In this document: positions 55,703 through 59,667 of the stretch, in pieces
Position numbering within the stretch: the stretch's first letter is position 1
Layout: each line of letters opens with the position of its first letter
From: Xanthobacteraceae bacterium
Lineage (GTDB): Bacteria > Pseudomonadota > Alphaproteobacteria > Rhizobiales > Xanthobacteraceae
DNA length: 64,000 bases
NCBI GenBank assembly: GCA_022841625.1
Contig: JALHRD010000005.1
Coordinates: 62,001-126,000, forward strand
Direction of reading: 5' to 3'
Program-made: the position numbers and the translations under genes
The notes under the pieces: generated by a model
Told to the model about the DNA's origin: nothing
Databases searched by the model: none
The model's input: only the letters and a program-made list of their open reading frames with translations

Positions 55703-56671
55703 ATGACCGTGACACGCCGGGTCGCCGCCACGCTGTTGTTCGCCGCCGCCGCCGGCGGCGCCCTGGCGCAGACGGGAGCGCCAGTTTGGCCGTCGCGCCC
55801 GATCGAGCTGATCGTTGCGTTTCCCGCCGGCTCCGGCGTCGATGCGATCGGCCGCGCGCTGGGGGCGGCGATTGCGCAGCAGGCTGGCCAGACTGTGGTT
55901 GTTCTCAACCGCGACGGCGCCGCCGGCACGCTCGGCTTTGCAACCCTCGCCGCCGCCGCGCCCGACGGCCATACCCTGGCATTCGGCCCGACCACCCCGA
56001 TCGCCAACGCGCCTTATCTGGTGAAAGGCGTCCGCTACAATGTCGATTCCTTCAGCTATGTCTGCCAGGTGTTCGAGAATGTCTTCGCGATCGCGGTCGG
56101 ACCGCAGTCGAAATTAAAATCGGCGCAGGAGCTGTTCGCGGCTGCCAACGACAGTCCCGGCAAGCTGACCTATGGCCATGCCGGCATCGGCACCATCCCG
56201 CATCTCTCGATGGAAAATACCGCCTTGGCGCTCAACCACACCTTCACCGCGGTACCGTTCCGCGGCGACGCGCCGTTGGTTCCGGCGCTGCTGCGCGGCG
56301 AAGTCGATTTCGCCGCCGCCGGCGTCTCGACCATCCGGCCGCAGCCGGCGATAAGGCCGCTCGCAATCTTTTCCGACAGGCGCCATTCGGCTTATCCGGA
56401 GATTCCGACGGTCAAGGAGCTTGGCGTCGCGGTCGGCGTGCCGCCCGGCCACAACGGGCTGTTTGCGCCGGCCGGATTGTCGGCGGAAGTGCGCAACGCG
56501 CTTGACGGCGCGTGCCGCACGGCGCTCAAGCAGGATTCGATCCGCAAGGTGATGGAGAACACCGGCCAGACGATCGAATATCTCAGCGGCGCGGAATTCC
56601 ACGCCCAAACCGCCGCCGACTACACCGCCAAGGGCGCGCTGATCAAGCGACTGGGCCTGGGCGCGCCGTAG
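55703..56671 (+). CDS. TTT-family (Bug/TctC) solute receptor
   Basis: 322 residues after GGAGG. The signal sequence is rich in Ala (RRVAATLLFAAAAGGALAQ). The mature core is WPSRPIELIVAFPAGSGVDAIGRAL, then VVLNRDGAAGTLGFATLAAAAPDG and YGHAGIGTIPHLSMENTALALNH. The usual GG before the Asp is SGV. It is divergent from the MetE-like gene 145 bp away, with which it may share regulation. Confidence 0.92.
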   Translation: MTVTRRVAATLLFAAAAGGALAQTGAPVWPSRPIELIVAFPAGSGVDAIGRALGAAIAQQAGQTVVVLNRDGAAGTLGFATLAAAAPDGHTLAFGPTTPIANAPYLVKGVRYNVDSFSYVCQVFENVFAIAVGPQSKLKSAQELFAAANDSPGKLTYGHAGIGTIPHLSMENTALALNHTFTAVPFRGDAPLVPALLRGEVDFAAAGVSTIRPQPAIRPLAIFSDRRHSAYPEIPTVKELGVAVGVPPGHNGLFAPAGLSAEVRNALDGACRTALKQDSIRKVMENTGQTIEYLSGAEFHAQTAADYTAKGALIKRLGLGAP

Positions 56672-56675
56672 CGCC

Positions 56676-57068
56676 TTATCCCTCCCCGAAGGGGAGGGTG
56701 GCCGCGCGCAGCGCGGCCGGGTGGGGATCTCTCCTGGCGAGCAGTGTTTGATAAATGGTCTGCATGACACCGTTGAGGTCGCGATCAACTTCGTGATTCC
56801 AAAATCGCAGAACTGTATAGCCGGCATCCTTCAAGGCATTGTCGCGCGTGACATCGCGCTGCTGCCCCTCTTCCATTCCATGCTGTCCGCCATCGACCTC
56901 GACGATAAGTCTTTGACGACGGCATTCGAAATCCACGATGTACGGCAAGATTGGAGACTGACGACGGAAGTGGAACCCGAGCGGGCGCAAGGCGCGTAGA
57001 CGCACCCAAAGTTTGACCTCCTGTGGGGTCATGGTCTTGCGGAGACGGCGCGCTTGGTCGTTCGCCAT
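56676..57068 (-). CDS. DUF559 (Vsr-like endonuclease fold) protein
   Basis: 130 residues. DUF559 core: ARRLRKTMTPQEVKLWVRLRA, GFHFRRQSPILPYIVDFECRRQRLIVEVDGGQH (the D-x-n-E-V/D active-site pattern of PD-(D/E)xK nucleases) and AGYTVLRFWNHEV. These proteins are related to very-short-patch repair endonucleases, but activity is mostly untested. The C-terminal PFGEG and the stop are encoded by an intergenic palindromic repeat. An inverted copy of the repeat lies upstream of the start, so the gene is bracketed by them. Confidence 0.88.
   Translation of the reverse strand: MANDQARRLRKTMTPQEVKLWVRLRALRPLGFHFRRQSPILPYIVDFECRRQRLIVEVDGGQHGMEEGQQRDVTRDNALKDAGYTVLRFWNHEVDRDLNGVMQTIYQTLLARRDPHPAALRAATLPFGEG
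56677..56727. repeat. palindromic repeat, left copy around DUF559 gene
   Basis: TTATCCCTCCCCGAAGGGGAGGGTGGCCGCGCGCAGCGCGGCCGGGTGGGG, containing CCCTCCCC/GGGGAGGG and GGCCGCGC/GCGCGGCC dyads. It overlaps the 3' end of the DUF559 gene and starts five bases after the Bug receptor stop, where it may also terminate transcription. Confidence 0.8.
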
Positions 57069-57092
57069 GAGCAAGAGCTTACATCATCCAAG

Positions 57093-57153
57093 CGGCCCCC
57101 ACCCGACTGCTCGCTAACGCTCGCAGCCACCCTCCCCTCCGGGGAGGGATAAG
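57093..57153. repeat. palindromic repeat, right (inverted) copy upstream of DUF559 gene
   Basis: CGGCCCCCACCCGACTGCTCG ... CCACCCTCCCCTCCGGGGAGGGATAA. It is the inverted relative of the copy at 56677 with a different middle hairpin (CTGCTCGCTAACGCTCGCAG). It ends five bases before the stop of the convergent-side cupin gene. Confidence 0.8.
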
Positions 57154-57158
57154 ACAGG

Positions 57159-58391
57159 CTACATCACGTCGCCCATGACGGCCTCGCCTTCGGCCGGCGG
57201 GCGTTCGTAGAATTCCGGATTCATCCGGCTGTTGACGCCTTCCTTCGCCAGCGTCGCCGCGAATTCCGCCCGGATCGCCGGGTCTTCCTGGTGATAGGGA
57301 ATGGCGCTGCCGCCCTTGTTGAGATCGATCGCGCCGTAATCCATCAGCTGTTCGCCGGGGCGGCCCGCACGCCGCGCCCGCTGGTTGTTCGGCCCGTGCC
57401 ACGCGCTGATCCGCAGGGCCTCCTTGCTGACGCCGAAATGCTGATGGAACCAGTCGCCTGCCATCGGCGCTGCCGAAACCAGCCCGACCGGCTCATAGTC
57501 CTGGCGCAACACCTTGTCGGCCTTGCCATCCTTCCATGGCTGGGTGCCGAGCGCCTCGGGCCAAGTATAAGTGTAGCCCTTGCCTTTAACGCACACGAGC
57601 ACGGCGGCGGACTGATGCTTATGCGCCTTTGAATAGCGGCCGGTCTCGTGCTCGCCGATCCAGACATAGAAACGGTTATTCGCCATTTGCGGCTCGACCC
57701 GCCGATAGCCGGGCGAGCGCCGGTTATCGAGCGGCAGTTCGGTGTTGACGATATCGGGTACGAAATTGGTGCGCCGCATCGCCAGCCCGCGGATCGGGTC
57801 CGGCACCACATCGTCATTAGGTTTGAAGAAATCGTCGGCGCCCGAAAACCGCTCAGTGAAGGCATGCGGGCAATTGAAGATGAAGTTCGGGTTGTCGAGC
57901 AGGTTCATTACGTTTGGCGCCGACGTGCCGCACAGGATCAGCGCCGGTGAACTCGATGCATTGACAATGCGATGAAACGCATTGAGCGGGATCGCAAACA
58001 TCGAGCCCTTCTGCCATTCGAACACATGCTTTTTGCTTTGGCCTTCCTGCCAGACTTCGGTCGAGCCACGGCCTTCGACCACCAGACAGACCTTCTCATA
58101 AAGATGCCGCTCGATATTGAGCGCGCCGGCGCCGGGCACCTCGACAATGTATTGGCCCCACAGGCCTTCGGTGCCGAATAGCTGGATATAGCTGCCGCGA
58201 CCGCCAAGCCGCTTCCACGGCTGCATCGGCAGGTCCTGCACCCGCCGCACCCCGATGCCGCGAAAAACCGGAATGCCCTCCGCCTCCATGAAGGTGTCGT
58301 AGGGCATGGCCTTGCGGAGGAACTTGCCATGACCTGCGTTCTCGCCGGCCTTGGGTTCGTGCCAATGTTCGCCGCTGGTGGTGTCGTGCAT
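57159..58391 (-). CDS. bicupin protein, tandem paralogue A
   Basis: 410 residues with two cupin domains: RHLYEKVCLVVEGRGSTEVWQEGQ ... GSMFAIPLNAFHRIVN, and AHKHQSAAVLVCVKGKGYTYTWPE ... GDWFHQHFGVSKEALRI. The His pairs in AHKH and FHQH are likely metal ligands of the second cupin; the first has only RH at the corresponding place. The general layout recalls gentisate dioxygenase-type bicupins, but signature residues differ. It is the downstream of two tandem paralogues, with the second gene at 58441. Function unknown; an aromatic or organic-acid dioxygenase or hydrolase role is inferred from neighbours. Confidence 0.85.
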   Translation of the reverse strand: MHDTTSGEHWHEPKAGENAGHGKFLRKAMPYDTFMEAEGIPVFRGIGVRRVQDLPMQPWKRLGGRGSYIQLFGTEGLWGQYIVEVPGAGALNIERHLYEKVCLVVEGRGSTEVWQEGQSKKHVFEWQKGSMFAIPLNAFHRIVNASSSPALILCGTSAPNVMNLLDNPNFIFNCPHAFTERFSGADDFFKPNDDVVPDPIRGLAMRRTNFVPDIVNTELPLDNRRSPGYRRVEPQMANNRFYVWIGEHETGRYSKAHKHQSAAVLVCVKGKGYTYTWPEALGTQPWKDGKADKVLRQDYEPVGLVSAAPMAGDWFHQHFGVSKEALRISAWHGPNNQRARRAGRPGEQLMDYGAIDLNKGGSAIPYHQEDPAIRAEFAATLAKEGVNSRMNPEFYERPPAEGEAVMGDVM

Positions 58392-58440: not shown

Positions 58441-59667
58441 TCACATATCCGGCGGTACGTCTTCGCCGTCGGCCGGCGGCCGTTCGTAAAACGCCGGGTT
58501 CATGCGGCTGGCGACGCCTTCCTTGCGCAGCGTGGCGTCGAACTCCTGCCGGATCGCCAGGTCTTCCATGTGATAGGGGATGGCGTTGCCGCCTTTGTTG
58601 AGGTCGATCGCCCAGATGTCGGCCATCGCCTCGCCAGGACGGCCGGCCTTGAGCGCGGGATGGTTGTTCGGCCCATGCCAGGCGAGGAGCCGCAGCGGGC
58701 CTTTGCTCACGCCGAAATGCTGGTGGAACCAATCGCCCGCCATCGGCGCCGCCGACACGATGCCGACCGGCTCGTAGTCCTGCCGCAGGACCTTGTCGGC
58801 CTTGCCGTCCTGCCAGGGCTTGGTCCCCAGCGCATCCGACCACGTATAAGTGTAGCCCTTGCCCTCGACACAGATCAGCACCGCCGTCGAATGATGCTTA
58901 TGCGCCTTGGCATAACGGCCGGTCTCGTGCTGGCCGATGAACATGTAAAAGCGATTGCCCGCCATATGCGGTTCGACCCGCCGGTAGCCGGGCGACCGGC
59001 GATTATCGAGCGGCAGATCGCAATTGATTACATCGGGAATGAGATTGGTGCGCCGCATGGCGAGCCCGCGCACCGGATCGGGCGCGATCTCGTCATTCGG
59101 CTTGAAGAAGTCGTCGGCGCCGGAAAAGCGCTCGGTGAAGTTATGCGGGCAGTTGAAGATGAAATTTGGATTGTCGAGCAGGTTCATTACATTCGGCGCC
59201 GAGGTGCCGCACAGCAGGACGGCCGGCGAACTGGCCGCATTCACAAGGCGGTGGCACGCATTGAGCGGAATGGTGAACAGCGAGCCGCGCTGCCATTCGA
59301 AGGAATGGCGCTTGCTCTGGCCCTCCTGCCAGACCTCGGTGGTGCCGCGGCCTTCGACCACCAGCACCACCTTTTCATAGAGATGCCGCTCGGCATGAAG
59401 CGCGCCGGCGCCAGGGATTTCGACCACATACATGCCCCACAGGCCTTCGGTGCCGAAGAGCTGGATATAGCTGCCACGGCCGCCGAGCCGCGCCCACGGC
59501 GCCATCGGCAGGTCCTGCACGCGCCTGACCCCGATGCCGCGAAACACCGGTACGCCTTCCGCCGCCATGAAGCTGTCGTAGGGCATCGGCTTGCGCAGGA
59601 ACTTGCCGAAGCCGGCGTTCTCGCCAGCCTTGGGTTCGTGCCAATGGTCTGCGGTGTTGTCGTGCAT
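58441..59667 (-). CDS. bicupin protein, tandem paralogue B
   Basis: 408 residues, collinear with the next gene without large gaps. Shared blocks include PVFRGIGVRRVQDLP, GGRGSYIQLFGTEGLWG, CGTSAPNVMNLLDNPNFIFN, RFSGADDFFKPND and DYEPVG followed by VSAAPMAGDWFHQHFGVSK. Metal-ligand candidates AHKHHS and FHQHFG are kept. Forty-nine bases separate the two genes, so they may be co-transcribed as a heteromer or as enzymes of shifted specificity. GGCGGGA lies upstream of the ATG. A Bug receptor gene is divergent from it. Confidence 0.85.
   Translation of the reverse strand: MHDNTADHWHEPKAGENAGFGKFLRKPMPYDSFMAAEGVPVFRGIGVRRVQDLPMAPWARLGGRGSYIQLFGTEGLWGMYVVEIPGAGALHAERHLYEKVVLVVEGRGTTEVWQEGQSKRHSFEWQRGSLFTIPLNACHRLVNAASSPAVLLCGTSAPNVMNLLDNPNFIFNCPHNFTERFSGADDFFKPNDEIAPDPVRGLAMRRTNLIPDVINCDLPLDNRRSPGYRRVEPHMAGNRFYMFIGQHETGRYAKAHKHHSTAVLICVEGKGYTYTWSDALGTKPWQDGKADKVLRQDYEPVGIVSAAPMAGDWFHQHFGVSKGPLRLLAWHGPNNHPALKAGRPGEAMADIWAIDLNKGGNAIPYHMEDLAIRQEFDATLRKEGVASRMNPAFYERPPADGEDVPPDM

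Follow-up and report, generated by a model that had tools for sequence, protein, structure and literature searches.

The systems closest to the locus described here are the REP sequences, their paired form, the REPINs, and the RAYT genes that accompany them: short palindromes in many copies, frequently in inverted pairs, and a gene for an HUH/Y1 transposase flanked by its own, GTAG-tagged type of repeat. For the Alphaproteobacteria, the excerpted text of a 2018 survey describes Y1 transposase homologues as absent or few in each genome (PMC6006769). The excerpted text of a 2013 survey defines another class, the CGTC REPs, by a CGTC (or TGTC/CCTC) tag and a stem of 8-9 bp that begins with AT, and describes it as predominant in the alpha-Proteobacteria, mostly in inverted dimers, and seemingly without a dedicated transposase (PMC3733652). 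On the protein side, excerpted text on Caulobacter VsrA, the one studied protein with a DUF559 domain that was found, makes this protein responsible for the SOS response when the methyltransferase ScmA is missing and relates it to repair connected with 5mC, and that text mentions no flanking repeats and no link to mobility (PMC12907096). The SOS role of VsrA indicates that some member of the DUF559 family does act on DNA in cells.

The locus studied here is of the REP/REPIN kind in layout and behavior, and it differs from REP/REPIN-RAYT systems in its enzyme and in its class of repeat. The gene between the repeats is a DUF559 gene for a predicted PD-(D/E)XK-type nuclease, not an HUH/Y1 transposase, and its repeats are marked by a hairpin of the CCTCYCC type, often joined by a second one, and by an inner GGGTGRGG. 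A GTAG tag was found neither on these repeats nor on the surveyed DUF559 flanks. A search of open-access PMC, which is a weak test of absence from print, found no link of DUF559 or GIY-YIG to such repeats.

Results

The 64-kb stretch of DNA that was analyzed (the window) contains a single endonuclease-like gene enclosed by mutually inverted repeats, as a sequence-only reading of the same DNA had claimed. The gene belongs to the DUF559 family, and the outer arms of its repeats (56675-56709 and 57119-57153) are 35 nt long, inverted, and 91% complementary. The features are as follows.

55703-56671, plus strand: left neighbor gene and left flank of the empty site, which we take to encode a tripartite-tricarboxylate (Bug-type) binding protein
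56674-57157, no strand: cassette and a few bp, between the points where homology with the same-genus genome G001 stops and resumes
56675-56726, plus strand: left palindromic repeat, on the 3' side of the gene (hairpin 1, 56680-56698; hairpin 2, 56700-56718; inner GGGTGGGG, 56719-56726)
56676-56726, minus strand: repeat-encoded gene end inside the left repeat (last ~16 codons and TAA stop)
56676-57074, minus strand: DUF559 (PF04480) ORF for a predicted Vsr-like nuclease, 132 aa from TTG at 57074
57097-57153, minus strand: right palindromic repeat, inverted, on the 5' side of the gene (inner CCCCACCC, 57097-57104; hairpin 2, 57105-57127; hairpin 1, 57130-57148)
57159-58391, minus strand: right neighbor gene and right flank of the empty site, presumably of the cupin type

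The right neighbor forms a tandem paralogous pair, presumably both cupin-type genes, with 58441-59667. Each repeat is built as a hairpin CCCTCCCC-N3-GGGGAGGG, followed by a second hairpin and the inner GGGTGGGG, and the two ends give z-scores of -4.12 and -2.85 when folded as single-stranded DNA. The window hairpin, CCCTCCCC-GAA-GGGGAGGG, differs from those of CGTC REPs in having neither the CGTC tag nor an AT-initial stem. With up to 3 mismatches, CCCTCCCCNNNNGGGGAGGG occurs in the 64 kb at the two repeat sites only, matched twice at each in overlapping register (4 matches against 0.41 expected; the largest of 100 shuffles gave 3). The TAA stop (56676-56678) lies inside the left repeat, so that about 16 codons are repeat DNA; the proposal that the last residues and the stop codon are repeat-derived was therefore borne out, while the right repeat, placed at 57093 in that reading, begins at about 57097. 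ATG at 57066-57068 (130 aa) is a likelier start than the TTG at 57074.

The ORF matches PF04480 with an E value of 2.3e-38 and 130.9 bits, well above the Pfam gathering cutoff of 20.6, and scores 12.3 bits against Vsr (PF03852), below the cutoff of 27; the profile search found no transposase domain in it. The catalytic-type residues of DUF559, E19, D48, E59, D61, and H65 (132-aa numbering), are present. Across 185 domain sequences, 9 fusions among them, the residues E, D, E, D, H, D, and R are kept at 94-100%, and E19, D48, E59, D61, H65, and R77 are invariant in 22 sequences. An AlphaFold model of the protein (pLDDT 82) has as its nearest solved structure NGO0050 of Neisseria gonorrhoeae (PDB 3hrl; Z 16.1, 47% identity). 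It also resembles the catalytic domain of I-Bth0305I (PDB 3r3p; Z 13.6 over 96 residues, 21% identity; profile E value 3e-4) and Vsr itself (1cw0 and 1vsr; Z 11.2). On this model, the protein has a Vsr/homing endonuclease fold of the PD-(D/E)XK type with conserved catalytic-type residues. The likeness to I-Bth0305I lies in the fold of the catalytic domain; that protein is named in the PDB as a mobile intron protein or homing endonuclease, whereas the DUF559 gene stands alone, encodes about 130 aa, and occurs in many unrelated neighborhoods. Likewise, the protein resembles Vsr in fold but falls below the Vsr profile cutoff. Pairs of bracketed DUF559 genes have a median dN/dS of 0.17 (range, 0.11-0.38; n = 10 pairs), and a wider set of 18 pairs that includes unbracketed genes has the same median. 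Two other origins were considered and rejected: a phage origin, for which 4 phage records match, and a defense system, for which the top PADLOC match, DpdF (E value 5e-5), covers part of a 1078-position model.

To compare loci, a bracket score was taken as the best inverted local match between the 250-bp flanks of a gene, with same-locus intervals shifted by 900 bp as controls; DUF559 fusions, Y1 loci, and GIY-YIG loci served as further control sets. An inverted bracket of at least 28 was found at 141 of 172 short DUF559 loci and in 11 of 437 shifted controls, and one of at least 31 at 136 of 172 and in 0 of 437. These loci are mostly strong matches, and many come from one order. The sample from relatives had 94 loci (85 short, 9 fusions; partial matches and other fusions excluded), of which L030 was dropped for a short flank, and 77 of 84 short loci were bracketed. 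The class (29) and phylum (24) samples consist of new loci, mostly the best match per genome, and gave 25 of 29 and 14 of 24, the order-level loci of the phylum search contributing 3 of 10. Among named genomes, 19 of 24 loci were bracketed, three of the 24 being already counted in other samples (L224, L225, and L231 duplicate other loci and are outside the 172 but inside the 24 and a set of 175). Bracketed named loci include those of Sinorhizobium sp. K101, S. meliloti Ak57, Sphingomonas parapaucimobilis (three loci), and Sphingobium RAC03 and, outside the source phylum, Deinococcus psychrotolerans and D. proteolyticus. Fourteen of 45 matches in a plasmid collection were scored: eight gave 44-208, one gave 29, and five were negative. 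No inverted bracket was found at 31 of the 172 loci, including those of Azospirillum, Methylobacterium, and Synechocystis; the order-level families L205-L222 are mostly unbracketed (2 of 7 positive in f24, 1 of 3 in f26).

In the source genome (G000, 4.9 Mb), six of the seven PF04480 genes are short, and all six are inversely bracketed (scores, 40-69), so the prediction that other DUF559 genes would have the same flanks held there as it did in the wider survey. The bracket pairs vary between these loci, and the match is mostly confined to a gene's own locus. The seventh (L007) is a fusion of a methyltransferase-type protein with a C-terminal DUF559 domain, a form that recurs in the family (L117-L124) and whose partner is presumably an RNA methyltransferase of the TrmJ-like type. 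By a regular expression composed after inspection of the repeats, a CCTCYCC-type motif is present at 137 of the 141 inversely bracketed loci (all except L205, L228, L233, and L165); an earlier expression had called five loci GTAG, from GTAGG inside the same hairpins, and one CGTC-like. At 86 of 132 bracketed loci, the reading frame ends inside (32) or past (54) the downstream repeat. By eye, the repeat at L024, L034, L116, L163, and L169 seems reversed relative to the gene, with an extra C-rich arm outside the hairpin.

Such figures might arise by chance or from composition, if any small gene in a GC-rich genome full of palindromes looked bracketed. The hosts are indeed GC-rich, the reversed pattern does find matches in some genomes (29 in G019, 9 in G058, and 7 in G042), and direct matching gives scores of at least 28 in 18 of 327 controls. 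But no shifted control has an inverted score of at least 31, none of the 9 methyltransferase-DUF559 fusions has one of at least 28, and the strict palindrome occurs 15 times in the 4.9 Mb of the source genome, 4 of these flanking DUF559 genes, where its reversed control occurs 0 times. We consider this explanation extremely improbable and the association of DUF559 with the repeats almost certainly real and specific.

The repeats also vary with the nuclease that they enclose. The median flank match is 59.5 within a locus and 24 for mispaired flanks. Repeat and protein similarity across genomes are correlated (Mantel rho 0.32), and 1,000 within-genome permutations of the repeats, which preserve host relatedness, gave a mean of 0.07 and a maximum of 0.24. 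For each of 59 cassettes from genomes with two or more, the closest nuclease of a different genome was taken as partner, and the partner's repeats were compared with those of the cassette and of its paralogues. The cassette's own repeats gave the best match 49 times, and 48 times if partners were limited to unrelated neighborhoods; 18 were expected in each test, and reciprocal pairs make the tests nonindependent. By these tests, repeat type tracks the nuclease and not the host.

The orientation of the repeats is less uniform. Among the 143 of 172 loci with a match of at least 28 in either orientation, the inverted match was better at 101, the direct match at 41, and one was tied; direct matching has the higher background (18 of 327 controls at 28 or more). 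The inverted layout proposed earlier thus holds at the window (inverted 62, direct 23) and at those 101 loci, and it fails at the 41, so that no single end layout holds. In the source genome, L005 matches better in direct orientation (86 against 40). The long direct matches examined are often complete gene-less elements that flank the DUF559 gene on both sides; examples are L029 (171 bp, 92%), L159 of Sinorhizobium K101 (133 bp, 85%), and L165 of Picosynechococcus PCC 7002 (145 bp, 83%). Further DUF559 genes lie between long direct repeats at L019, L112, L113, L161, and L244. The gonococcal DUF559 locus L164, from the species of the closest structure, NGO0050, differs from the window in lying between direct repeats (114 bp, 89% identical, with the CCCTCTCCC motif); no inverted bracket was found there (score, 20). 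Recombination between direct whole-element copies would remove the gene, and a single gene-less element or pair would remain. The direct layouts reduce the weight of the inverted arrangement; because the pairing of gene and repeat, their codivergence, and the gene-less pairs are independent of orientation, the odds of the cassette reading are unchanged.

Repeats far outnumber genes. Genome G001 has 206 strict palindromes and 10 PF04480 matches; of 50 listed palindromes, 26 form 13 pairs less than 150 bp apart, and 8 of these pairs are exact reverse complements. G058 has 92 palindromes and one PF04480 match, and nine of nine close pairs chosen from its listing have the two unlike end types of the cassette, one with and one without hairpin 2, though with differing loop bases. 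Many-copy palindromes, close inverted pairs, and copies flanking a dedicated nuclease gene make up a REP/REPIN-like behavior, with direct copies at 41 loci. Genomes with more copies of short DUF559 genes have a higher density of palindromes (rho 0.53, p 1e-5), and the correlation is also seen inside the family (rho 0.38, p 0.02). The copy numbers rest on 90 matches that reach about 80 bits, some fragments included; G015 (a match of 69 bits), G028 (gene broken), and G027 (fusion and partial matches) were scored as gene-less. Density does not follow the number of Y1 transposases (rho -0.03), and 11 of 17 genomes with at least 50 palindromes have no Y1 match. Nineteen of 24 Y1_Tnp matches were tested for brackets: 11 of 19 are inversely bracketed, 6 with GTAG repeats by regular expression and none with CCTCYCC among the matches listed. 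The method therefore detects the RAYT-REP pairing and tells it apart from the DUF559 pairing. A RAYT or IS200-type transposase as the mobilizer was rejected, since its number is uncorrelated with the palindromes and it carries other repeats.

The sequence-only reading had named two observations that would count against it: DUF559 genes without these flanks and repeats equally common without the gene. Each was encountered in part, in the 31 unbracketed loci and in the excess of repeats over genes. Gene-less copies often stand as close inverted pairs whose ends are of the cassette type. The excess raises the alternative that the palindromes are REP-like sequences that owe their spread to a different enzyme or to recombination, with the DUF559 gene as a passenger caught between two copies. 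Two genomes that lack PF04480 matches still have palindromes (67 in G024 and 34 in G041), which favors a passenger, as do the loci with better direct copies, several of them whole gene-less elements, as if the gene were held between repeats. However, repeated capture of a gene by its own lineage's type of repeat, even in unrelated neighborhoods (the 48 of 59 cases above), is not expected of a passenger, and Y1 transposases, the only kind searched for, lie at loci with GTAG or other repeats and in numbers untied to the palindromes. We regard a passenger gene as unlikely.

Occupied and empty sites were compared at several loci. The site in the window is occupied in the source genome, and the cassette is absent from two same-genus genomes, in which the intergenic regions hold other palindromic sequence. 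In G001 two inverted CCCTCTCCC repeats without a gene occupy the site, and in the third same-genus genome the intergenic site (56672-57158 in the window) corresponds to another palindrome-rich stretch, with TGTCCCGG (the relatives' loci are L125 and L126). With three palindromic sequences in three genomes, this intergenic site is perhaps an insertion hot spot. Another cassette, L006, lies between genes that we take to be sucC and sucD; these are 14-17 bp apart at 12 of 29 relatives' loci, and in other relatives the gap holds different or longer sequence. A Sinorhizobium K101 insertion of ~730 bp is absent from Shinella. Other cassettes neighbor pntA or lie at sufB|sufC, yqeY|dnaG, and paaD|paaZ. 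In another genus, a DUF559 gene beside sucC/sucD is split over two contigs, with repeats at the contig ends (L110 on G010:C33, and G010:C5). For S. meliloti Ak57, the matches in the empty-site comparison were dominated by ISRm16. No target-site duplication or exact junction could be established at the window, sucC|sucD, the G058 pairs, or the Shinella sites, where the junctions are too diverged. The empty sites that had been predicted in relatives were thus found at the window, at sucC|sucD, and, for the Sinorhizobium site, in Shinella. The proposed small mobile cassette is supported by repeats and gene that are jointly present or absent at orthologous sites and that recur in unrelated neighborhoods; as far as genome comparison goes, gene and repeats are associated and have moved together.

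The same comparisons bear on whether the gene is instead a domesticated repair gene, that is, a host Vsr-like mismatch endonuclease whose repeats are left over from earlier mobility or serve as terminators. The dN/dS values point to purifying selection on DUF559, the hairpins could end transcription, and excerpted text on Caulobacter VsrA places that protein in a DNA-damage context tied to cytosine methylation (PMC12907096). A host repair gene would nevertheless fit poorly with patchy occurrence at orthologous sites, with up to 10 matches in one genome, with copies broken by stops (L069, L227, and L230), and with gene-less pairs that have the same end types, and it leaves the codivergence of nuclease and repeat without explanation. 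This alternative seems to us quite improbable.

The same genomes offer a parallel in their small GIY-YIG genes. In a sample of 30 loci, one per genome (L294-L323), 22 have inverted brackets, compared with 2 of 57 controls, and CGTC-like repeats were detected by regular expression at 17 of the 30. At L292, on Azospirillum lipoferum 4B AZO_p3, the gene order is sufB, GIY-YIG, sufC. It is possible that small GIY-YIG proteins are the dedicated enzyme of CGTC repeats.

Discussion

Our best reading of this locus and its relatives is that of a REP/REPIN-like mobile cassette in which a Vsr-like nuclease replaces the RAYT tyrosine transposase, and we give it a probability of roughly 0.6. The nuclease is probably the agent of the cassette's spread, and we infer that it catalyzes the process itself. 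The nuclease would recognize its own repeats by their hairpins, which it might meet at replication forks in single-stranded or cruciform form, and would nick next to them. Copying or repair would then establish a pair of palindromes elsewhere, either alone or together with the gene. In a variant of this scheme, the nuclease would cut gene-less pairs and the gene would home into them via the shared repeats; the gene-less pairs could then be the cognate site for homing. The recurrence of these packages of gene plus repeats suggests a little-noticed kind of mobile element, one that relies on a nuclease of the repair type in place of a transposase.

A broader proposal, to which we give slightly less than even odds, is that short mobile repeats have dedicated nucleases of several folds: HUH (RAYT) with GTAG repeats, Vsr-like DUF559 with CCTCYCC repeats, and GIY-YIG with CGTC repeats. 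DUF559 cassettes would then be autonomous, widespread, non-transposase elements, and alphaproteobacterial repeats regarded as lacking a transposase would gain enzymes. If this is true, different nuclease folds have reached short mobile repeats by the same route. For the spread of REP-like palindromes in Alphaproteobacteria, a nuclease matched to its repeat would be a testable candidate for one large class of repeat. The cassette reading also offers a role for DUF559, a domain labeled as of unknown function, and it would account for small ORFs with repeat-coded ends and for small genes inside conserved operons such as sucC|sucD and sufB|sufC.
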